Made by a program: the position numbers and the translations under genes | Notes under the pieces: generated by a model | The model's database searches: none | Told to the model about the DNA's origin: nothing | The model's input: the letters and a program-made list of their open reading frames with translations, nothing else | Source of the DNA: Caulobacteraceae bacterium PMMR1 | GTDB taxonomy: Bacteria > Pseudomonadota > Alphaproteobacteria > Caulobacterales > Caulobacteraceae | NCBI GenBank assembly: GCA_000733915.1 | Contig: JPOM01000001.1 | Coordinates: 682,001 to 746,000, forward strand | Direction of reading: 5' to 3' | DNA: 64,000 bases | Shown: in pieces, positions 27,245 through 63,074 of the stretch | How the letters are laid out: every line of letters begins with the position of its first letter | Position numbering within the stretch: the stretch's first letter is position 1

Positions 27245-27877
27245 CTACTGGCTGGCCCAGAGGATTCGCGCCACCCAGGCCACGTCCTTGCGGTCCAGGG
27301 TACGCGGGGGATAGTCGGGGTTCAGCGACCTCAGCTCGAGCCGGCGCGCCGTGACCCGCGCCACCTCCTTGGCCATGACCTCCCCGTCGGCGGTCTTGAC
27401 CACCACCCGGTCGCCCCGGCGCGGCTCGGGCGTCGGCTGCACCAGGATTCGGTCGCCGTCGCGATAGACCGGCGACATAGAGTCGCCGGAGATCTCCAGC
27501 GCATAGACGCCGTCGGCGAGGCCCGGGAACTCCACCTCGTCCCAGCCCTGGCCGACGGGATAGCCGGCGTCGTCGAAGTAGCCGTCAAAGCCCGCCTGGG
27601 CCAAGCCGATCAGGGGCGCGGTGCGGGCCGGCGCGCGGCCCTTTCCCTCGGCGAGCGCGGCGAACTCGGCGAAGCTCACGCCAGTCGCCTGCAGCACCTT
27701 GGCGAGACTCTCGGTCGAGGGCCAGCGGGGACGAGGCGAGGTCTCGTTGGAGGCGCGCTTGGAGCGGTTGAAGCTGGTCGGGTCCAGACCCGCCAGGCGC
27801 GCCAGGCCGGACGGCGTCTCCCCCAGCCGCGCGGCGAGGGCGTCGATCGCCGACCAGACCTGGGCGTGGGTCAGCAC
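27245..27877 (-). CDS. S24-family (LexA/CI-like) HTH transcriptional repressor
   Basis: This 210-residue protein has an N-terminal helix-turn-helix region (about residues 5-75, LARLAGLDPTSFNRSKRA) and a C-terminal peptidase S24 domain. Ser133 lies in ISGDSMSPVYRDGD and Lys170 in EVMAKEV; their 37-residue spacing matches LexA/CI. An Ala95-Gly96 pair (LAQAGFDG) sits where autocleavage is expected, so RecA-stimulated self-cleavage is plausible. Such Caulobacterales proteins resemble phage CI repressors but are often chromosomal and lack a phage. The region upstream of its start contains AATTGCAGGAATT near 27935-27947, a possible operator. It is not LexA itself judging by its HTH. Confidence 0.85.
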   Translation of the reverse strand: MLTHAQVWSAIDALAARLGETPSGLARLAGLDPTSFNRSKRASNETSPRPRWPSTESLAKVLQATGVSFAEFAALAEGKGRAPARTAPLIGLAQAGFDGYFDDAGYPVGQGWDEVEFPGLADGVYALEISGDSMSPVYRDGDRILVQPTPEPRRGDRVVVKTADGEVMAKEVARVTARRLELRSLNPDYPPRTLDRKDVAWVARILWASQ

Positions 27878-28417: not shown

Positions 28418-28467
28418 GTCGCGGGGTGGTCATCTGCGATCATCGGTTAGGGTCGGATTTGCCGACC

Positions 28468-28735
28468 TCAACCCAAGACCACGAGACCGAAGATGACCGA
28501 GGACATGATCGCCCTTCGCGGGCGCGATGTTGAACAGCCACAGCCCCTCGGCCACGGCGTGCAGGCCCGGGATCGGCAGGGGGAATTGCGCCAGCGTCAA
28601 CGCCAGGATGCCCGTGCCCATGGTGGCGGTGAACCAGTTGGGCATGAACTGTCGCACCACCTCGCGCGGACTGGACAGGCTCGCGAGGGGGCGCAGGCCC
28701 GTGGTGACGGCCAGGACGGCGGCTTGGTCGGTCAT
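28468..28735 (-). pseudogene. Truncated TDT/TehA-SLAC1 family transporter, N-terminal fragment
   Basis: From ATG 28733-28735 the frame reads a cytoplasmic leader and then VRQFMPNWFTATMGTGILAL and HAVAEGLWLFNI. This is the first membrane hairpin of the tellurite-resistance/dicarboxylate (TDT) family, which contains SLAC1-like anion channels. Family proteins have ten helices and about 330 residues. Here homology stops after roughly 60 residues. A short second piece in another frame, ending MSSVIFGLVVLG before TGA 28468-28470, looks like the tail of a membrane protein. The gene is therefore an internally deleted remnant with no expected function. Confidence 0.65.
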
Positions 28736-29113
28736 GGGGTCGGCCTCCTTGGAGCAGGGATTGTGCGCCTTCGCCGCCCGCCCGTCCAACCGGGCCTTGC
28801 GTCCAAACCGTTCGGCCGAGCCGATGAGTCCGGCGCCAGGCGGCGTCGATTGATCATCATGAGCGATCGGACTACGCCCCAGGCATGACGCTGGGGCCGC
28901 CTCACATCACCAGCATCCAGACCGCCATGGCGACCATCAAAATTTCAGTGTCAAGCTTCGACACGAGGACCCACAACTAACGGATCGTCAGCGGAGCGCG
29001 CCGCTTCCCGATACGATCCCCGCCCTCCAGTAGACTTGCGGGCAACGGCGAGTTCTCTACACTGAACGGATCGGGCGCCGTGTTGAACCGGCCTCGCTTG
29101 CGCGGGGGAAGGG
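28736..29113. other. 378-base region without an intact gene
   Basis: No credible gene was found. The region includes an imperfect palindrome GTGTCAAGCTTCGACAC at 28948-28964. A short minus-strand frame reads WVLVSKLDTEILMVAMAVW and looks like the tail of a lost membrane protein. Composition is more AT-rich than the surrounding core genes. Confidence 0.5.
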
Positions 29114-30492: not shown

Positions 30493-30615
30493 CTATTTCC
30501 ACCTGAGCTTTCTCAACAGTTCGTCGAACGTTTGGGCGCGCAGATCGACATCCCCCGCAAAAAGGTCATGCCCCGCATCCGGGACTCTGGCGGGGTCGAT
30601 TGACGTCTTCTCCGT

Positions 30616-31497
30616 CTAGAGCTTCCCGGTCGGGAGGAGCTCGCTCAGCAGCCGATTGGGGAACCGCCGCTTCTGCACAACGGCGTAGAAGGTCTCGGTG
30701 ACCTCGGGTATCCGGCAGTGCTCGACCAGGACGCCGGTCTCAAGCTCATCGCGGACGACGATGGGCGGCACGAGGGTCACGCCCTCCCGTTCACGGGCGA
30801 GCAGACGCAGCATCGCCATGTCGTCGACTTCGGCCAGGACGGTGGGTCTTATCCCGGCGAGCTCGAGCACCCGATCGAAGGCGACGCGGATGTCGCTGTC
30901 CAGACTGGGCAGGAGGATCGGCTCTGACCGGAGATCGTCGGGGAAGCTGAACTTGCGCCCGTCGGGACGCGGGTGGCCGACCAAGCTCACCGGCTGCTCG
31001 TTGAGCAAGTGATTGCGCAAGGACGAGCGGGCGTCGCGGGGTGCAGCGCTGTTGGCCAGGACCACGTCGATGGCGTGCGCCTCCAGCTGCGCGAGCAGAT
31101 CGCGGATGTTGCCCGAGCGCACGATCAATTCGACATCCGAGCGGCCCACCAGGGGCCGGAGGAATTCGAGCTGGAAGTTCCGCGACAGGGTCGTCAGGGC
31201 GCCGACGCGGAGAACCTGACGGGTGGCCGAGGGCCGCCCCCGCAGGGTGCTCATCAGTTCGTCGCCGGCCTTGAACACCGTGTCGGCGTAGTCGAGCGCG
31301 ATCTGTCCGGCCTCCGTCAGAACGAGCTTCCGGCCGACGCGCTCGAAAAGCGCGTGCCCCATCTGATGCTCAAGCTTCTGAATCTGAACGGAAAGCGCCG
31401 ATTGGGACAGGTTCAAGCGCTCGGCCGCCCGCGTGAGGCCGCCCTCGTGGGCCACCACCCAGAAATAGCGCAGGTGATTGTAGTTCAGGTCTCGCAT
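30616..31497 (-). CDS. LysR-family transcriptional regulator, divergent from dabBA
   Basis: This 293-residue protein has an N-terminal winged HTH (YNHLRYFWVVAHEGGLTRAA, LNLSQSALSVQIQKLEHQMG) and a LysR substrate-binding domain (about 95-293) ending in LLSELLP. The LNYNHLRYFW opening resembles NhaR-like and DAB-linked regulators. It is divergent from dabB with a 108-base promoter region containing an ATT-N9-AAT (T-N11-A) element. It probably senses carbon status or a metabolite and controls the dab genes. The effector is unknown. It appears intact, with complete helices and a normal family length. Confidence 0.9.
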   Translation of the reverse strand: MRDLNYNHLRYFWVVAHEGGLTRAAERLNLSQSALSVQIQKLEHQMGHALFERVGRKLVLTEAGQIALDYADTVFKAGDELMSTLRGRPSATRQVLRVGALTTLSRNFQLEFLRPLVGRSDVELIVRSGNIRDLLAQLEAHAIDVVLANSAAPRDARSSLRNHLLNEQPVSLVGHPRPDGRKFSFPDDLRSEPILLPSLDSDIRVAFDRVLELAGIRPTVLAEVDDMAMLRLLAREREGVTLVPPIVVRDELETGVLVEHCRIPEVTETFYAVVQKRRFPNRLLSELLPTGKL

Positions 31498-31519
31498 GTT
31501 GTTCTATTAAAACGAACGA

Positions 31520-31534
31520 ATTAGCCGAAACAAT
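31520..31534. promoter_or_regulatory. Candidate LysR-type (T-N11-A) operator between LysR gene and dabB
   Basis: The AT-rich divergent region contains ATT, nine bases, then AAT (31520-31534), which satisfies the T-N11-A pattern bound by LysR regulators. It lies 72 bases before the dabB GTG. This is a pattern match only. Confidence 0.45.
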
Positions 31535-31605
31535 GAAATTTTTTCGAGGTTCCGTGATCAGGTACCAACGTCCACGGACAGTCATCGTTTTTGAAGGAGG
31601 CTCTC

Positions 31606-33165
31606 GTGCAGCACTTCCTTGCGCCGCTGTCGGCGTCCGTTCCGCTGCTTCTCGCCGGAGCGGTCAGCTTCCTCGATCGTGGTCGGCGCCCGAAGATCGG
31701 CCCCTGGATGGCCGAAGCCGCCTCGCTGCTCGCCCTGCTGGCGGCGGTGGCGACCGCGGGCGGGCTGATCCTCTTTGGCGCGGGCGAAAGCCCCGTTTTC
31801 GGGCTCATGGGATGGGGTCTGTCGATCAGATTCGACGCCGTCAGCGCGACCGTGCTGCTGGTGGTCACATTCGTGGGATGGATCGTCGTCCGCTATGCTC
31901 GGACCTATCTGGACGGCGAGGCCCGCCAGGGCGACTTCACTGGGTGGCTCTGCCTGACGCTGGCGTCGGTGGTGCTTCTGGTGAGCGCCGGCAATCTGTT
32001 GCAGCTGGTGATCGCCTGGATCGGCACCAGCCTATTTCTGCACCGGCTGCTGCTGTTCTATCCACAGCGGGTCGCCGCGCAGCGGGCGGCGCGGAAGAAG
32101 TTCATCATCGCGCGGCTCGGCGACGCCGCGCTCCTCGGCGGCGCGTTCCTGCTGGCCGCCGCTTACGGGACATCTGACGTCGGGACGATCCTTGCCGCCG
32201 CGAAGTCGGGGGCGGGCGGAGGTCTTGCCGTCGCCGCGGCTGGGCTCCTGGCGGTCGCCGCGGTGCTGAAGTCGGCCCAGTTTCCCGCCCACGGCTGGCT
32301 CACCGAGGTCATGGAGACGCCGACGCCGGTGTCGGCGCTCCTCCACGCCGGCGTCATCAATGCCGGCGGTTTCCTGCTGATCCGCTTCGCCGACGTCATG
32401 CTTCTGGCGCCCGGCGTGCTTGCCGCCCTGGTCGTGATCGGCGGGTTCACCGCGCTTTTCGGCAGCCTGGTCATGCTGACCCAGCCCGCGGTCAAGACCT
32501 CGCTCGCCTGGTCCACCGTGGCCCAGATGGGGTTCATGGTCTTCGAGTGCGGCCTGGCGCTCTTCCCCCTGGCGCTGCTGCACATCGTGGCGCACTCGCT
32601 CTACAAGGCGCATTCCTTCCTCGCGTCCGGCGGCGCCGTCGAGCGCGTGGCGGCGATCCGCAGGCCCGGGCCGGTCGCTGTGCCGAAGGCCGGCGCTGTG
32701 GCGCGCGCCTTCCTGTCGGCGCTCGCCATCTATGTCCTTGTCGGGGCTTGCTTCGGCTTCGAGCACAAGTCGCCCCAGGCGGTCGCGCTCGGCGCCATCT
32801 TGATCTTCGGCGTCGCCTATATGCTGGCGCAAGGGTTCGCCGACGCGGCGCCCCGAGCGCTGACGCGGCGCACAGCCGTCTATGCGGTGGCGACCTCGGT
32901 CGGCTACTTCGCCCTTCAGTGGGCGGCGACCGCGATCACCGCCCATGTCCTGCCGCCGCCGCCGTCGCCGGGTCCGCTCGAATGGGCGCTGATCGCACTG
33001 ACGGCCGCAAGCTTCGGCCTGGTCGCCGTCGTGCAGGCCATGTTCCCCCTCTGGGCCAACCACCCCGCCGCCGCCGGCCTTCGCGTGCATCTTTCGAACG
33101 GATTTTACGCCAACGCCGTTTTCGACCGGCTGATCGGCGGCTGGTCCGTCCGCAACCCATCCTGA
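31606..33165 (+). CDS. dabB: DabB, NuoL-like proton-conducting membrane subunit of the DAB inorganic carbon accumulation complex
   Basis: This 519-residue protein has about thirteen to fourteen membrane helices and the proton-conducting (NuoL/M/N, MrpA) module. Visible motifs are GWLTEVMETPTPVSALLHAG and SLAWSTVAQMGFMVFECGLA, with the conserved Glu/Lys/His positions of antiporter-like subunits (LKSAQFPAHGWL). In DAB systems it couples ion flow to DabA, driving one-way CO2 hydration. GTG 31606 is chosen because AAGGAGG (31594-31600) lies five bases upstream; a TTG at 31591 would sit inside that element. dabA follows after 19 bases, giving the usual dabB-dabA order. Confidence 0.9.
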   Translation: MQHFLAPLSASVPLLLAGAVSFLDRGRRPKIGPWMAEAASLLALLAAVATAGGLILFGAGESPVFGLMGWGLSIRFDAVSATVLLVVTFVGWIVVRYARTYLDGEARQGDFTGWLCLTLASVVLLVSAGNLLQLVIAWIGTSLFLHRLLLFYPQRVAAQRAARKKFIIARLGDAALLGGAFLLAAAYGTSDVGTILAAAKSGAGGGLAVAAAGLLAVAAVLKSAQFPAHGWLTEVMETPTPVSALLHAGVINAGGFLLIRFADVMLLAPGVLAALVVIGGFTALFGSLVMLTQPAVKTSLAWSTVAQMGFMVFECGLALFPLALLHIVAHSLYKAHSFLASGGAVERVAAIRRPGPVAVPKAGAVARAFLSALAIYVLVGACFGFEHKSPQAVALGAILIFGVAYMLAQGFADAAPRALTRRTAVYAVATSVGYFALQWAATAITAHVLPPPPSPGPLEWALIALTAASFGLVAVVQAMFPLWANHPAAAGLRVHLSNGFYANAVFDRLIGGWSVRNPS

Positions 33166-33184
33166 CTGACCCGGAAGACCGATC

Positions 33185-35611
33185 ATGACCCACGAACTCC
33201 TCTCGACCTGGCCCAACCCTCAGGCCTTAGCGGCCGCCATGAACCGCGCCGCGCGGGCAATCCCGCCGGTCTGGCCTCTGGCGTCCAGCGTCGCGGTCAA
33301 TCCGTTTCTCGGGCAGGCCGAGGAGCCCCTCGCCAAGGTCGGCGCGCGGCTTGCTCGGGTCGCCGGCGCCGCGGTCGCCATGCCCCGGGGGTGGTATGCT
33401 CAGAAGATCGTCACCGGCGCGATCAGCGATGCCGATCTGGAGGCGGCGATCGCGAGCACGCCGGCCGGATCGATGCGCCTCGATGTTTCGACGCTCAAAG
33501 CCGCGCTCAGCGTCGACGCGCCGCGCCCAGAGGCGCTTCCCACGATCGCTGATCTGGCCGCGCGCGCATCCGGCGTCGATTGGCCCGGGATTATCGCGGA
33601 GCGCTTCGGAGCCTGGGCGGCCGGCTATTTCGACGAAGGCCAGGCGCTGTGGACGGCGCCGAAGGGCAAGGGCGCCTATGCCGCCTGGCGGGCGATCGCG
33701 ACGCACGACCTCACGCCCGAAATCGCCGGGCTGCCGAACTTCGCGCTGCACGTATCGGAGGCGCCGGAGACCGCCTCGGCGCTGGTCGAGCGCGTTGCGG
33801 CCCGGCTGGGGTTAGAGGCGGGCGCTGCTGAGACCTACTTCCATCAGATGCTCATGACGCTTGGCGGTTGGGCGCAGTATGCCCGCTATGCCCTATGGCA
33901 GGCGGAACTCGCCGGCGGCGCGGACGAGACGATCACCGATTTCCTGGCGATCCGGCTGATCTGGGAAGAGGCGCTCTTCCTGCGCTACGAAGCCAAGATC
34001 GCCAAGGCTTGGGTGAGCGTGCGCACGGCCCATGCCGCGCCCCTTGCGCCGACGCTCGATGGCGTCATCGACGCCGTGCTCCAGGAAGCCGCCGAGCGGG
34101 CCGCGCAGCGGAGCTTGGCTCAGGTCCTTGCGAGTGAGGCGCCGCACGCGCTCGACGACCGACCCGCGCTTCAGGCCGTATTCTGCATCGACGTCCGTTC
34201 GGAAGTGTTCCGCCGGGCGCTGGAAAGCCTGGATCCCCGGATCCAGACGATGGGCTTCGCGGGCTTCTTCGGCTTGACCACCGCGCATCGGCGTTTCGCC
34301 TCCGACGTCGAGGAACGGCGGCTGCCTGTCTTGCTCAACCCCGCGCTCAGCTCCTGCTCGGGCGGCCCCGAACTCCAGGCGAAGGATCAGTCCACGCGGT
34401 TCAAGGCGCGGGCAAAGCGCGCCTGGGGCCGGTTCAAGCTCGCCGCGGTCTCCTCCTTCGCCTTCGTCGAGGCGACAGGCCCCGTCTATGTCGGCAAGCT
34501 CCTGACCGATGCGTTACACCTGCAAGACCCCCTTACGCCCAACGACCCGCCGCCGCGGCTCGATCCTGCGCCCGATCCGGCGGCCCGGTTGCAGGCTGCC
34601 GAGAGCGTGCTGCGAGCGATGTCGCTGACCCGCGATTTCGCGCGGCTGGTGCTGCTGGCCGGTCATGGCGCCAGCGTCGTCAACAACCCGCATGCCAGCG
34701 CCCTGCATTGCGGCGCCTGCGGCGGCTATTCTGGAGAGGTCAACGCCCGGCTGCTCGCCTTGCTTCTGAACGATGCCGAGGTGAGGGATGGGCTGTCGCA
34801 GAGTGGGATCGAAATCCCCGACGACACGCTGTTCGTGGCGGCGCTGCACGACACCACCACCGACGAGGTGACCCTCTACGACGGGGATCATCCCGCCGCC
34901 GCCCACCGGGGCGATCTCGAGCAGGCGAGAGCCTGGCTGGCTTCGGCAGGCAAGATCGCCCGGACCGAACGCGCCCTTCGCTTGCCGCGGGCCGCAAGCG
35001 GGGCGGCGCTGCATCGCAGAAGCCGCGACTGGTCCGAGACCCGGCCCGAATGGGCGCTGGCCGGATGCCAGGCCTTCATCGCCGCGCCGCGCCGGCGCAC
35101 GGCTGGCAAAAGTCTGGAGGGGCGGGCCTTCCTGCATGACTACGACTGGAAAGAGGACAAGAGCTTCAGCGTTCTCGAACTGATCTTGACCGCTCCGGTC
35201 GTGGTGGCGAGCTGGATCAGCCTGCAATATTATGGATCGACTGTGGCGCCCGAGGTCTTCGGAGCCGGAAATAAGCTCCTGCACAATGTCACTGGCGGGA
35301 TCGGCGTGGTCGAGGGCAACGGCGGCCTCTTGCGCGTCGGCCTGCCGTGGCAGTCGGTCCATGACGGCGAGCGCTATGCGCACGATCCGCTGCGCCTGTC
35401 GGTCTGCATCGAGGCGCCGCGCGAGGCGATGTCGGAGATCCTTGGCCGGCACGCGGGCGTGCGGGCCCTGTTCGACAATGGCTGGCTGCATCTGTTCGCC
35501 CTGGACGAGGCCGGGCGCATGGCCTGGCGTTATGCCGGCGATCTCAAGTGGTTGGCGATGGGGGAGCGCGAGGCCTCTCACGCGGCCCCGCCCCTCAAAG
35601 TGGCGGTCTGA
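33185..35611 (+). CDS. dabA: DabA, beta-carbonic-anhydrase-like subunit of the DAB inorganic carbon transporter (DUF2309)
   Basis: This 808-residue protein matches UPF0753/DUF2309. All four residues predicted to form the zinc/catalytic site are present: Cys334 and Asp336 ([10 protein letters not shown]), His494 ([13 protein letters not shown]) and Cys509 ([12 protein letters not shown]). The His-Cys spacing of 15 equals that of the characterised Halothiobacillus DabA. The protein is largely soluble and expected to sit on the inner face of DabB. It would hydrate CO2 to bicarbonate in an energy-coupled way, supplying bicarbonate for anaplerotic or carboxylating reactions. No carboxysome or Rubisco gene is in this window. 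The start is ATG 33185. Nothing suggests decay, unlike the flanking genes. Confidence 0.93.
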
Positions 35612-35681
35612 CGCCATGCTCCGTCCCCTCTCTCCGTGGAGTGGGGCCGAAACGCGAAATAGGCTCTGCGGCGAAGGCGAC

Positions 35682-35774: not shown

Positions 35775-36286
35775 TCAGGGGGCGGGTTTCGACCTGGCTA
35801 GTTCGGCCTCGAGCTCGGCGATGCGCGCGTCGCGCTGGGCGAGTGCGGCGGCGACGTCCTCGGCGTCGAACTTCTGCGGGATATGCTGAGGGCAGTTGAG
35901 GTCCCAGGCGGCGATCTGAAACAGGATCGCAGCCTCGGCGCGCGCCCTATACCCCGTCGGCATCAGCATCGCGTTCAGCGCGGCGTCGCCCTCCACAACC
36001 CGTGCGCGGCCCCAGATCTTCACCCGCTGGCGCCGGGCGTAGTCCATCAGGAACAGGAACGCCTTGGGATTTTCGGCCAGATTGCCGGTCGAGACATACT
36101 GCCGGTTGCCCGCATAGTCCGCAAAGCCGATCGTCGTCTCGTCAATCACCCGGATGAACCCCTGGGGCCGCCACGATGCTGGGCGTAGGGCTGTCCGTCA
36201 GCACTGGCGGTCACCAGATACGCGCTGTTGGCCTCGGCCAGGGCCTGGCGCAAGCGGGAGTCGATCGCCGCTCGAAAGCCGCTATC
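35775..36286 (-). pseudogene. Pyridoxamine-phosphate-oxidase-like (PNPOx-fold, FMN-binding) protein, frameshifted and N-terminally truncated
   Basis: The downstream 124-residue frame reads IGFADYAGNRQYVSTGNLAE and KAFLFLMDYARRQRVKIWGR, a PNPOx-like split-barrel, with a C-terminal coiled tail (RDARIAELEAELARSK). Upstream in another frame the minus strand gives LAEANSAYLVTASADGQPYA followed by QHRGGP, the preceding family segment. The two join as GGP-x-GF if one C is added to the run at plus-strand 36164-36167. The usual first 60-80 residues are missing, replaced by a LysR fragment. Such proteins bind FMN and may reduce small molecules. The gene is very likely nonfunctional as it stands. Confidence 0.75.
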
Positions 36287-36312
36287 AGGCTGCCCCGGCG
36301 ATCCGCCAGGGT

Positions 36313-36465
36313 CGGCTGACGTCGATCCTTGAGGACTACGCGCCAGACCCGATCCCCGTCCACCTGCTCCACACCGGCCCGCCCTTGCCGCCGCTGAAGC
36401 TGCGAGCGTTCCTCGATTTCGCGACCCCTCGGCTCAGGTCGGCGCTCGCCGGCCTGCCGACGTGA
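36313..36465 (+). pseudogene. LysR-family regulator, C-terminal fragment
   Basis: The frame reads RLTSILEDYAPDPIPVHLLH and PPLKLRAFLDFATPRLRSAL before TGA. This is the diagnostic end of LysR effector domains (LEDYxPxPxPVHLLxP, KxRAFLDFxxPRLR). Nothing upstream resembles a DNA-binding domain. The fragment abuts the truncated PNPOx-like gene head-to-head, as expected if a deletion removed the start of both. Confidence 0.65.
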
Positions 36466-59656: not shown

Positions 59657-60112
59657 TCAGGTTGTCGGGGCAGCCGTCGGGGGAGGGGGCACGTTCAGGA
59701 TTCCCCAAAACACGCCAAGGTCCTGAATCGCTTCAAAGAAGTCGCGAAAATTCACGGGCTTGACCACGAAGGCGTTCACGCCGGACTGATAGCTGCGCAC
59801 AAGGTCGCGCTCCTCGCGCGACGAGGTCAGCATCACGATCGGGATCTGGCGCTGCTGCGGGTCGCTCTTGACCTGCTGCAGCACCTGCAGGCCGTCGACC
59901 TTGGGCAGCTTGAGGTCGAGCAACACCACGGCGGGATCGCCGGGCGGCCGCTCGGCGAACTCGCCCTGGCGGTAGATCCAGTCCAGCGCCTCGGCCCCGT
60001 CCCGCGCCACGACGATCTCGTTGGCGAGCTGGCAGCGGCTGAGCGCCGCCAGGGTCAGCTCCATGTCCCTGGGGTTGTCCTCCACAAGCAGGATTGGTCT
60101 TAGATCAGCCAA
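59657..60112 (-). CDS. Rcp1-type response regulator linked to bacteriophytochrome
   Basis: This 151-residue single-domain receiver has VEDNPRDMELTLAAL, phospho-acceptor Asp in VVLLDLKLPKVDGLQVL, Thr/Ser in IVMLTSSREERDL and the Lys in AFVVKPVNFRDF. The RDGxEALDWIY insert and C-terminal tail match phytochrome-partner receivers (Rcp1-like). TTG 60112 overlaps the bphP stop by eight bases, so it is translated with the phytochrome and is its most likely phosphate acceptor. Confidence 0.88.
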   Translation of the reverse strand: MADLRPILLVEDNPRDMELTLAALSRCQLANEIVVARDGAEALDWIYRQGEFAERPPGDPAVVLLDLKLPKVDGLQVLQQVKSDPQQRQIPIVMLTSSREERDLVRSYQSGVNAFVVKPVNFRDFFEAIQDLGVFWGILNVPPPPTAAPTT

Positions 60113-62333
60113 CGCTACGCTCCCGACCGAGGTGCGGCAGGGCGAAGCGGAAAGTCGCCCCTTCTCCGAGCCGTCCTTCGGCCCAGATCCGACCCCCGTG
60201 TCGATCCACGATCCGGCGGCTCAAGGCAAGGCCGATCCCGGCCCCCTCGAACTCCTCCACCCGGTGCAGCCGCTGGAACACGCCGAACAGCTTGTCCACA
60301 TAGCGCATGTCGAAGCCGACGCCGTTGTCGCGCACCGCGTACACGGCTTCGCGCTCGTTGCTTTCCGCAAAGACCTCGATCACCGCGGGCCTGCGATCGC
60401 GCGAGTATTTGACCGCGTTGCTGACCAGGTTGAACAACACTTGTCGCAGCAGCGAGCCGTCCCCGTAGGCTGGCGCAAGCTTGCCGATCCGCCACTCGAT
60501 CTGCCGATCCTTGAGGTCGAGCTCCAGGCTCTTCAGGACCTCGGCCATGAGCTTGTCCATGTCGACGCGCGATTTCTGGAGCGTCACGCGGCCAAGCTGG
60601 GAGAAGGCCAGCAGGTCGTCCACCAGACGCCCGGCCGAGAGCGCCGCGTCGATGATATTCTCGAGGTAATGGCGCGAGGTCGCGTCCAGGTCCGGCGCGC
60701 GCTCCTGCAGCAGCTCCGAGTAGCCCACGATGTGCCGGAAGGGCGCGCGGAGGTCGTGGGAGACGGAGTAGGAAAAGGCCTCCAGCTCCTTGTTCGACCG
60801 CTGCAGCTCCTCCGCCAGCTGGGCGCGCTCCTCGGCGGAGCGCAGCACGATGTTCAGCACCGCGTTGCGGAACTCCCGCGCCGTTTCGATCTCCGCAGTG
60901 CGCCAAGGACGGGAGCGGCCGCGCACGACCTCCTTCCAGCGTTCGAAGGACTTGCGGGGGTGCAGCCGGTCGGAGCCCGGCTCGACGCGCTTGTGCGGCT
61001 CCCCGCCCCAGAGCACGGTCTGCTCCAACTCCGGGCGGAACCAGAGGATATAGCTGGGGTGCAGCTCCGAGATGCTGACGGCCAGAAGGCCCGCGGCCTC
61101 GGTTCGGAACCGCTCGGCGCCCGGCATGGCGGCGGGCAGGCTGTCGACGGCGATCACGTCCTGGCGCGGCTGGCTGTTCAGCCAGGCCACGATGTCTTCG
61201 ACCTCCTCGCGCGAGGGTGTACGCCCGGCCATGATCACCGAGGTGGGCGAGACCAGCGCTGCGCCTTCCGCGCCACAGAGGCGGATCCAGGGCTCGGCGT
61301 TGGCGGAGAGCCCCTCCGCAAAGGTCGGGCTGCGCGTCATGCCGGCGAGCAGGTCGGTCATCTGCGACTTCAGCCGATTGCGCGCCTCGGCCGCCTCCAC
61401 ATGGGCGCGCGCGCCGAGCTGCAGCCCCAGCACCTGGCCGATCAGGTCGCAGGCGATGCGCACCGGCGGGGGAGGCAGGCGAGGCTCTGCGTGGTGGCAG
61501 GAGATCAGCCCCCAAAGCCGGTCCTCGACCAGCACCGAAACCGACATGGACGCCGGCGTGCCCATGTTGCGCATGTACTCCAGGTGCACCGGCGAGACGC
61601 TTCGCAGGCCGACGAAGCTGAGGTCGAGGGGCGCCCCGTCCATCGGGTTCAGCGGCGGCGACAGGGGCACGGGGGCGTAGCGCGCGTCCGGGATCAACCG
61701 CAGGCGGTTCGCCAGATAGAGCTCGCGGGCCTGGGCGGGGATGTCCGAGGCCGGGAAGTGCAGGCCGAGATAGCTCGGCAGGGCGCCCGAGCCGTCCTCC
61801 GCCAGGACCTCGCCGTTCCAGTCCGGGTCGAAGGCGTAGATCAGCACCCGGTCGAAGCCGGTGATCCGCCGCACGTGCCGGGCCGCCACGGCGCAGAGCT
61901 CGCGCATGTCCGCCGCCGCCTCCAGCCGCCTCAGCAGCGACCGCACCTCCGGATAGAGCCCCTCAAACGACGTCGGCGCGCCGGGGATGACAGGCTCGAG
62001 CTCCATCAAGGTGAGCGGGCCATGGCCATGGGCGGTGACGTGGAAGGCCCGACCGTTCACGCTCACGGTGCGCAGAGCCCCGTCCGGGGGCTCGGCCGGG
62101 ACCTCGCGCGCGAGGGCGGCGATCTCGGGACAGAGGACGTCGAGCGGCTGCGGGTCGCCGGTCCAGGCCGCCCCGGTGAGGTCGGCGAAGTTGGCGCTGG
62201 CCTGCACGGCGCGTCCGCTCGTGCGGTCCGCGACGAGCAGAGCGCCATGAGGCTGGATCGCGCCGGGGACGCGGATCGGCTCGGCGTCGCAGGCTTCCAG
62301 GTCGAGAGCGCCCGCCGGGGCGGCGTCGGCCAT
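60105..62333 (-). CDS. bphP: Bacteriophytochrome histidine kinase (PAS-GAF-PHY-HisKA-HATPase)
   Basis: The ATG at 62333 is preceded by GGAGGAGG and gives 742 residues with the biliverdin-binding Cys15 in LEACDAEPIRVPGAIQPHGA. The PAS domain is followed by GAF (FPASDIPAQARELY; the DIP motif) and PHY (PRKSFERWKE; the PRxSF tongue motif). Then comes a HisKA domain with SVSHDLRAPFRHI and an HATPase (NLVSNAVKYS, DNGVGFD, GIGLALSRRIV). It senses red/far-red light through biliverdin IXalpha and phosphorylates the Rcp1-like protein. A heme oxygenase gene is not visible in this window, so biliverdin must come from elsewhere. The longer open frame upstream is rejected. Confidence 0.95.
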   Translation of the reverse strand: MADAAPAGALDLEACDAEPIRVPGAIQPHGALLVADRTSGRAVQASANFADLTGAAWTGDPQPLDVLCPEIAALAREVPAEPPDGALRTVSVNGRAFHVTAHGHGPLTLMELEPVIPGAPTSFEGLYPEVRSLLRRLEAAADMRELCAVAARHVRRITGFDRVLIYAFDPDWNGEVLAEDGSGALPSYLGLHFPASDIPAQARELYLANRLRLIPDARYAPVPLSPPLNPMDGAPLDLSFVGLRSVSPVHLEYMRNMGTPASMSVSVLVEDRLWGLISCHHAEPRLPPPPVRIACDLIGQVLGLQLGARAHVEAAEARNRLKSQMTDLLAGMTRSPTFAEGLSANAEPWIRLCGAEGAALVSPTSVIMAGRTPSREEVEDIVAWLNSQPRQDVIAVDSLPAAMPGAERFRTEAAGLLAVSISELHPSYILWFRPELEQTVLWGGEPHKRVEPGSDRLHPRKSFERWKEVVRGRSRPWRTAEIETAREFRNAVLNIVLRSAEERAQLAEELQRSNKELEAFSYSVSHDLRAPFRHIVGYSELLQERAPDLDATSRHYLENIIDAALSAGRLVDDLLAFSQLGRVTLQKSRVDMDKLMAEVLKSLELDLKDRQIEWRIGKLAPAYGDGSLLRQVLFNLVSNAVKYSRDRRPAVIEVFAESNEREAVYAVRDNGVGFDMRYVDKLFGVFQRLHRVEEFEGAGIGLALSRRIVDRHGGRIWAEGRLGEGATFRFALPHLGRERSVG

Positions 62334-62440
62334 GACCTCCTCCGAAAGTGGTGCGGAAACGCTGCGCACCATAGCGAGGCGCGACAGTCTGCCATGCGCA
62401 AATGCGGGGAGGGCCTGCCGGTTTCGGAGCTTGCGCGCGC

Positions 62441-62929
62441 TCAGTCCCCGAACCAGGCGAACCGGGGACGCCAGACGCCCAGCACGACGTTCGCCGCCGC
62501 CACCGCCAGCAGAACCCAGAGCGTGCCGACCTCCGAGGCCAGCAGGCGCTGGGCGGCGGCCGGGTCGGGCGCGACCGCCAGGCGGGCGGCGCTGCGGGTC
62601 GCCTCCTCCTGGATCGGGCCCAGCACGTGCAGTCCGCCCTCCAGCACCAGGACGCCGGTTCCGGCCTTCAGCCACACCCAGCCCAGGTCGTAGAAGGCCG
62701 GGTTCAGCGCCATGGCGAGCAGGCCCGAAACGACCGTCGCGATCATGCCGGGCCCGACCAGCAGGTTCGCCACCTGCGCCATCGCCGCCACCAGGGCGCC
62801 GTCGCGCGCCTCGCCCCCTGCGCCGGGCGCGGCCATCGACAGCACGACCGCCAGGGCCGCCATGCCGCCCATGAAGGCCGCGGCCCCGAGCGTATGCACG
62901 ATCTTCACGAGCCGGCGCAGCGCGATCAC
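62441..62929 (-). CDS. DUF2269-like integral membrane protein
   Basis: This 162-residue protein has about four membrane helices and starts MIALRRLVKIVHTLGAAAFM, typical of the DUF2269/CopD-like group where His in helix 1 may bind heme or metal. Further features are LLVGPGMIATVVSGLLAM and LGWVWLKAGTGVLVLEGGLH. It is not clearly linked to the bphP operon, whose start lies 108 bases away. The function is unknown. Confidence 0.7.
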   Translation of the reverse strand: MIALRRLVKIVHTLGAAAFMGGMAALAVVLSMAAPGAGGEARDGALVAAMAQVANLLVGPGMIATVVSGLLAMALNPAFYDLGWVWLKAGTGVLVLEGGLHVLGPIQEEATRSAARLAVAPDPAAAQRLLASEVGTLWVLLAVAAANVVLGVWRPRFAWFGD

Positions 62930-63074
62930 CCTCGCAGCTTAGCACGGATCGCGGGCGCGGCGTCGCAGGGGCGTTCGCAAGCCGGCGGGATTTGCTAAAG
63001 CGACAGCCTTGTCACGGTCCTGAGGGGCCAGGGCGCGGCGCGAACGCGCGCGGGCCCCTGGCCGGGAGAGACGA

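Follow-up and report, generated by a model that had tools for sequence, protein, structure and literature searches.

Our analysis has shown that Caulobacteraceae bacterium PMMR1 carries an intact LysR-dabB-dabA module and that this module has moved between lineages as a unit by lateral transfer. The genes lie in the window, by which we mean the whole 64,000-nucleotide stretch analysed (contig JPOM01000001.1, positions 682,001 to 746,000); all three are complete, at the place where an earlier note made from the letters of the window had put them. The module belongs to a described and structurally solved type of inorganic carbon system known from heterotrophs. It probably encodes a functional vectorial carbonic anhydrase of the DAB type that travelled with its own regulator, is switched by LysR, is driven by protons and supplies bicarbonate. 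Since the genome gave no match to RuBisCO or to bacterial microcompartment (BMC) domains, an energy-coupled bicarbonate supply without RuBisCO-based fixation is the best reading.

Integrity of the module and its catalytic residues

The regulator gene (30616 to 31497, minus strand) is divergent from dabB and encodes a LysR-family protein of 293 amino acids with complete HTH_1 (E 1.4e-23, 83 bits) and LysR_substrate effector (E 2.2e-22, 80 bits) domains. The dabB gene (31606 to 33165, plus strand) encodes a NuoL-like membrane subunit of 519 amino acids when read from a GTG, and the adjacent dabA (33185 to 35611, plus strand) encodes a zinc subunit of 808 amino acids that resembles β-carbonic anhydrases and has a membrane finger. 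DabA matched PF10070 with 883.8 bits (cut-off 25, E 1.4e-265), covering positions 2-747 of the 747 in the model. Among solved structures, DabA2 of Halothiobacillus neapolitanus (9rd0_A, E 1.1e-172) was the sole distinct sequence that it matched at E 0.001. DabB matched Proton_antipo_M (PF00361, E 4.4e-39), and its top solved match was DabB2 (9rd0_B, E 3.5e-68), followed by complex I subunits (best E 1.1e-40). An automatic list of open reading frames (ORFs) begins dabB at an upstream TTG (31591); the GTG at 31606 is the most plausible start, with AAGGAGG, a putative ribosome-binding site (31594 to 31600, plus strand), 5 bases ahead of it. This start makes the span of 108 bp previously given for the intergenic region (31498 to 31605) correct.

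Mutation has proved the importance of Cys351, Asp353, Arg355, His524, Cys539 and Glu444 in DabA2, and of Ser256, His260, Lys310, Ser316, His339, His343 and Lys347 in DabB2 (PMC13144422). These positions were transferred to the window proteins through pairwise alignments, and the numbering of the seven DabB residues was rechecked. Every counterpart was present, namely C334, D336, R338, H494, C509 and E429 in DabA, and S248, H252, K302, S308, H331, H335 and K339 in DabB. The four DabA site residues singled out earlier (Cys334, Asp336, His494 and Cys509) are among them, and the 15-residue His494-Cys509 spacing equals that of His524-Cys539 in DabA2 (numbers from PMC13144422). DabA also keeps Ser339, and Glu429 takes the place of the finger residue Glu444. 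In DabB, Ile144 stands at the place of Ile151, which distinguishes DabB2 from NuoL, where it is Glu. Conservation among the fetched relatives was nearly complete: the Cys-His-Cys zinc ligands and the Asp-Arg dyad occurred in 103/103 DabA rows, the finger acid was Glu in 102/103 (Asp in L098), and the seven proton-path residues were present in 97/97 DabB rows. The Ile151 place held I in 67 of these, V in 28, and A and M in 1 each; the DabB ion-pair residues were slightly variable (R175 in 95/97, D178 in 93/97, K227 in 95/97). We looked for a phylogeny that would place DabA in a clade without carbon-uptake function and found none, the rows being tied to carbon uptake by homology alone.

A sodium-driven bicarbonate importer resembling MpsAB, in place of a proton-driven CO2 hydratase, is the first alternative. 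LysR gave 54 NCBIfam matches, the best 25 of which all lay under the curated cut-off; NhaR, a sodium-response regulator, came first, yet its score was 132.6 against a cut-off of 219 (CynR, 93.1 against 277; CbbR, 56.2 against 450). MpsAB itself is a homologue and has been proposed to be a Na+/HCO3- cotransporter (PMC6689103). However, DabA retains both the zinc site and the dyad found in DAB2, which uses CO2. DabA2 and DabB2 were the best matches among solved structures, and no MpsAB structure was among the matches. For DAB2, a test of sodium dependence found none (PMC13144422). A sodium-driven importer is thus unlikely in our judgment.

Lateral transfer and purifying selection

A scan of named genomes, in which loci were selected by DabA and not by LysR, confirmed at least 565 places, of which the best 80 were kept. 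Among these 80, the nearest DabA proteins were those of Acidiphilium rubrum, Acidiphilium sp. PA and a bog Acetobacteraceae metagenome-assembled genome (MAG), at 86-87% identity; the closest from the same family in the set was 79% identical (L149, which is G020) and the second 75%. A quick tree built from 103 DabA rows put the window copy in a starred group of 6 with the Acidiphilium and bog MAG copies, and a careful tree of 32 hand-picked rows gave the window's group of 4 support of 99/94. G020, which represents another genus of the family, belongs to the window's wider clade, most family copies lie in a different one and some elsewhere again, a scattered placement which indicates that the module moved more than once. 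The LysR tree agreed in outline with the DabA tree, and the window was in no starred group there. Forcing the window DabA to group with the main family clade was rejected by an approximately unbiased (AU) test (p-AU 4e-4), the groups having been named after inspection of the tree. This test included the nested Sphingomonas row L031, because it lies among the nine family rows in the free tree; without it (window plus nine family rows) p was 1.7e-6, and the nine rows without the window gave p 0.044. With L149 added too, the program printed 6e-94, which was not used as a number.

Compared with the bog MAG (L004), the window genes had a synonymous divergence (dS) of 0.31 for lysR, 0.28 for dabB and 0.44 for dabA, against 1.03 for polA of the same two organisms, the protein of which is 54% identical. 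Nucleotide similarity to L004 stops at the module ends (30613 to 35623), a separate match in polA excepted. Between the module and Acidiphilium, dS was 0.33-0.51, compared with 0.42-0.89 for the native secA against 11 same-family genomes and 0.56-0.64 for argJ against three. Acidiphilium belongs to another order, and yet its distance from the module is about that seen for native genes between genera of the family, or smaller. The ratio of nonsynonymous to synonymous divergence (dN/dS) was obtained against seven relatives (21 gene comparisons) by a simple counting method, in which dS near 1 makes some pairs uncertain. It was 0.06-0.11 for lysR, 0.16-0.20 for dabB and 0.15-0.20 for dabA, and the three genes are under purifying selection. 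The earlier note had offered selection or recent acquisition as reasons for the module's preservation; the dN/dS values (0.06-0.20) support the first, and the AU test and the low module dS relative to polA support the second.

The base composition of the module is merely mildly odd and was set aside as weak proof of transfer. GC content at third codon positions (GC3) was 0.871 for lysR, 0.874 for dabB and 0.836 for dabA, against 0.914 (sd 0.031, range 0.832-0.955) for 25 hand-chosen window genes. Codon-usage distance was high for lysR (0.299) and dabA (0.267) and ordinary for dabB (0.199; other genes 0.108-0.303). Transfer into the PMMR1 lineage is a possible direction, which the mildly low GC3 would fit. 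DabA relatives occurred on 123 plasmid records (14 at 60-80% identity, the remainder lower) and LysR relatives at the DNA level on 98, of which 8 cover at least 80% of the query. The locus of Acidiphilium sp. PA (L003) is flanked by SSB, Mom and DUF3991-Toprim genes, which we take to be plasmid-like. No close plasmid record was found for the Acidiphilium flanks, a short 72% match aside, so that their plasmid origin is hinted at by gene types alone. A Pfam scan of the ORFs neighbouring the PMMR1 module found no mobile-element families. On one side of secA, comparison with 11 relatives showed a SurA-like neighbour in 10 and an argJ neighbour in 9. On its other side, the window matched these relatives nowhere except for a weak response-regulator match (30% identity, L163), and this near-total mismatch means that an insertion border cannot be drawn.

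The nearest named relatives, Acidiphilium and the bog MAG, with Acidocella close by among the same best 80, come from acid habitats. This lends some support to a second alternative, a regulated proton-entry device for the control of pH or membrane potential that yields bicarbonate as a by-product; this would make sense under acid conditions, in which most inorganic carbon is CO2. A literature search on the habitat of the nearest MAGs found nothing. Against such a device, Enhydrobacter and Caulobacteraceae rows share the DabA clade, and CO2-limited growth was the readout for the DAB2 mutants (PMC13144422). We consider it improbable.

The divergent LysR and a conserved operator

Eight of the 80 named loci were too short upstream to be used. 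A LysR homologue was found in 69 of the 72 usable loci, and in 66 it was divergent and within 400 bp of dabB; among family loci, a set that overlaps the named one, 17 of 20 had this arrangement. A co-directional LysR, 67% like that of the window, precedes dabBA in L030 (3274-4152) and in L150, which are probably one contig of 37,319 bases.

To define the regulatory region, a close group with LysR identity of at least 79% was assembled, comprising 48 distinct intergenic sequences including the window, and 25 distant ones were compared. The close-group regions align through the left half of the gap, with alignment gaps at the lysR edge only (L042, L081). Their conserved layout is GTTC-N9-GAAC, 12 bases, ACAATGAATTT and, 22 positions further on, an invariant TA. 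Box 1 is the palindrome (31501 to 31517). Box 2 (31529 to 31541, plus strand; consensus AACAATGAATTTT, with A for T at 31538 in the window) was recognised by cross-species conservation, the commonest base of each column occurring in at least 92% of the 48 distinct sequences. The TA (31563 to 31564, plus strand) is found in 100% of them, inside an otherwise little-conserved stretch. As an internal control, the mean top-base frequency was 0.56 in the right half of the gap and 0.82 in the left half. The spacing to box 2 (GAAY-N12-ACWAT) was kept in 46/48 close and 23/25 distant regions, and another pattern found both boxes in 44/48 and 15/25, respectively. Box 2 is likely an activation half-site, and the TA is possibly part of the dabB -10 element.

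The earlier note had pointed to a T-N11-A element between the two genes. As evidence the bare motif was discarded as uninformative, because eight of them overlap in the 108-bp gap, and the cross-species footprint was used instead. One of the eight (31503 to 31515) is nevertheless the core of box 1, whose pattern (GTTY-N9-GAAY) occurs in 47/48 close and 16/25 distant intergenic regions, so that a real element is present. The conserved ATG of box 2 was also considered as the start of a leader peptide; this was set aside, the frames not being evidently conserved by eye.

When 100 genomes were searched with the two-box pattern at up to one mismatch, there were 11 matches in 10 genomes, all upstream of a DabA match within 2.5 kb. 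These 10 were among 21 DAB-positive genomes; none of the 79 DAB-negative genomes had a match, and the reversed pattern was found nowhere in the 100. The pattern was partly derived from dab loci, so its presence there is expected; what counts as independent is that it was missing elsewhere. PMMR1 has one match and still only one at up to three mismatches; hence there is none at its β-carbonic anhydrase gene. In L022 (1342-1881; G011:C28:1310-1349 and 2044-2083), a TspO/MBR gene sits between lysR and dabB with an operator copy on either side, an arrangement that looks like duplication of the operator to bring in a further gene. No paper title or abstract found in a literature search on LysR with DAB dealt with this operator, and a linked LysR may have been mentioned before.

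RuBisCO, carbonic anhydrase and the distribution of DabA

The PMMR1 genome (2.67 Mb, one contig, 99.9% complete) contains one DabA copy. The whole genome gave no match to RuBisCO (PF00016), which a CO2-concentrating mechanism built on this enzyme would need, and none to BMC shell proteins (PF00936), which a carboxysome would need; DAB as part of a carboxysome/RuBisCO system was thereby ruled out in PMMR1. The earlier note, which saw no such genes, had proposed an energy-coupled bicarbonate supply for a heterotroph. The supply remains the best reading, but "heterotroph" is unproved, the search for autotrophy having covered RuBisCO. No α-carbonic anhydrase match was found genome-wide. The single β-carbonic anhydrase match (G000:C1:1638179-1638634) is an intact-looking protein of 214 amino acids with CSDSR and HYDCGG stretches, which we take to be β-carbonic anhydrase motifs, and with no evident signal peptide by eye. 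DAB is therefore not the sole route to bicarbonate in this cell.

To place these observations, we surveyed 390 Caulobacteraceae genomes with a PF10070 search that included divergent copies; PMMR1 is the only genome of its genus code among them. DabA was present in 48/390 genomes and in 11/22 genera. Two genomes had two full-length DabA copies each, G386 (C16, C31) and G410 (C28, C32). RuBisCO was found in 8/390 genomes, 7 of which were also DabA-positive (Fisher p 2e-6; the genomes are not independent). DAB is thus enriched with RuBisCO in the family, yet mostly present without it (41 of the 48 DabA-positive genomes). β-Carbonic anhydrase was found in 381/390 genomes; of the 48 DabA-positive ones, 47 had it, and the one without, G259, is an assembly 88% complete. 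DAB thus supplements carbonic anhydrase in the family and does not replace it.

These counts bear on two further alternatives. The module could be what remains of a CO2-concentrating mechanism in an ancestor that fixed carbon, kept by chance, and the association of DAB with RuBisCO in the family would fit this. However, most DAB genomes of the family lack RuBisCO, the window DabA lies outside the main family clade, and dN/dS well below 1 in all three genes makes a relic unlikely; overall we find this very improbable. That DAB replaces carbonic anhydrase as the cell's sole CO2 hydratase, as MpsAB is the only such system of Staphylococcus aureus (PMC8567241), is scarcely credible and was ruled out as a candidate, since PMMR1 encodes the 214-residue enzyme, which contradicts it unless that enzyme is inactive, and the same coexistence prevails across the family.

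Neighbouring genes

The module had been described as lying among decayed genes, and this holds in part. A PNPOx-type gene (35778 to 36433, minus strand) looks broken, being split over two frames with an upstream piece that matches weakly (E 0.024), and so does a SLAC1 anion channel fragment (28433 to 28906, minus strand) covering 42/331 model positions. On the other hand, the adjoining secA ORF is full-length, and the nearby ORFs of TonB_C and EF-hand type could simply be small genes of an ordinary kind; three further ORFs have no Pfam match. Beside the module, GC content is about 60-67% between 28000 and 31000, where there are few recognisable genes, compared with 70-75% leftward and 64-69% across secA rightward. 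The window also contains an S24-peptidase regulator (27245 to 27877) and a phytochrome-type histidine kinase (PAS-GAF-PHY-HisKA-HATPase; 60105 to 62945, minus strand).

Proposed role

Our proposal of a functional, LysR-switched DAB module would work as follows. DabB would conduct protons down the proton-motive force, with H+ assigned by analogy with DAB2. The DabA finger, with Glu429, would sit in DabB and couple proton flow to CO2 hydration. Cytosolic CO2 would be hydrated at a buried DabA zinc (Cys334, His494 and Cys509, with Asp336-Arg338), and the inorganic carbon, trapped as bicarbonate, would feed biosynthetic carboxylations. By binding the bipartite site in the 108-bp intergenic region, the divergent LysR would switch dabBA, and probably also itself, most likely under CO2 or bicarbonate shortage once β-carbonic anhydrase becomes insufficient. 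We infer catalysis, the coupling ion, the LysR signal and the binding of LysR to the boxes from the comparisons above.

Several observations weigh against this proposal. Six of the 72 usable named loci lack a close divergent LysR: it is divergent but 828 bp away in L022, in the same direction in L030 and L071, and without a match in L045, L050 and L070. Eleven of the 21 DAB-positive genomes have no operator match at one mismatch; in the two readable ones, L016 and L081, the boxes deviate by a few bases. The AlphaFold model of LysR is poor (pLDDT 66.7). The RuBisCO association (7/8) means that carbon fixation may belong to the history of DAB in the family. Further, according to a Firmicutes-based account (PMC8552792), a DAB-type system and carbonic anhydrase seldom coexist, and there is hardly any point in having both. 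The counts in Caulobacteraceae differ from that account, and coexistence in a few species was known earlier, for example in B. anthracis, L. pneumophila and V. cholerae (PMC6689103), and DAC homologues are widespread among heterotrophs (PMC13144422, PMC10880623). In favour of the proposal, co-expression of DAB2 and Can in engineered E. coli was harmless and further improved growth, and DAB2 restored growth of C. necator lacking carbonic anhydrase at 1.5% CO2; both effects were ascribed to a nutritional need for bicarbonate (PMC9894237).

A wider proposal is possible, and we advance it tentatively. LysR could be a dedicated regulator with a single target, sensing a shortage of CO2 or bicarbonate and travelling with dabBA across many alphaproteobacterial families, on chromosomes and plasmids, which would make the module a portable "bicarbonate on demand" cassette beside carbonic anhydrase, with the operator as an exact genomic tag. 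New here are the dedicated operator, the portability together with LysR, and the coexistence with β-carbonic anhydrase as a family rule (47/48 DAB genomes). They bear on why an energy-consuming CO2 hydratase is retained by bacteria that already have a carbonic anhydrase. With a conserved regulator and an exact operator, the signal of LysR would reveal when such bacteria need pumped bicarbonate, and the operator marks DAB copies of the regulated, mobile type.

Comparison with known systems

The closest characterised system is DAB2 of H. neapolitanus (PDB 9rd0, 9rd8 and 9rd9), with which the PMMR1 module shares the two subunits, the zinc site, the Asp-Arg dyad, the finger Glu, the proton path and the Ile at the Ile151 place of DabB. 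PMMR1 differs in having no RuBisCO match, a divergent LysR with a conserved operator, and a β-carbonic anhydrase in the same genome. MpsAB of S. aureus is homologous and likewise an inorganic carbon system of two subunits, in a host that is not an autotroph (PMC6689103). In contrast to PMMR1, where β-carbonic anhydrase stands alongside, it is the sole system of its host and is proposed to be sodium-coupled. The nearest modules, those of Acidiphilium rubrum (L002) and the bog_908 Acetobacteraceae MAG (L004), have the identical gene order (identity 87% for DabA, 90% for DabB and 93-94% for LysR) and the same operator as the window, and differ from it in family and flanking genes.

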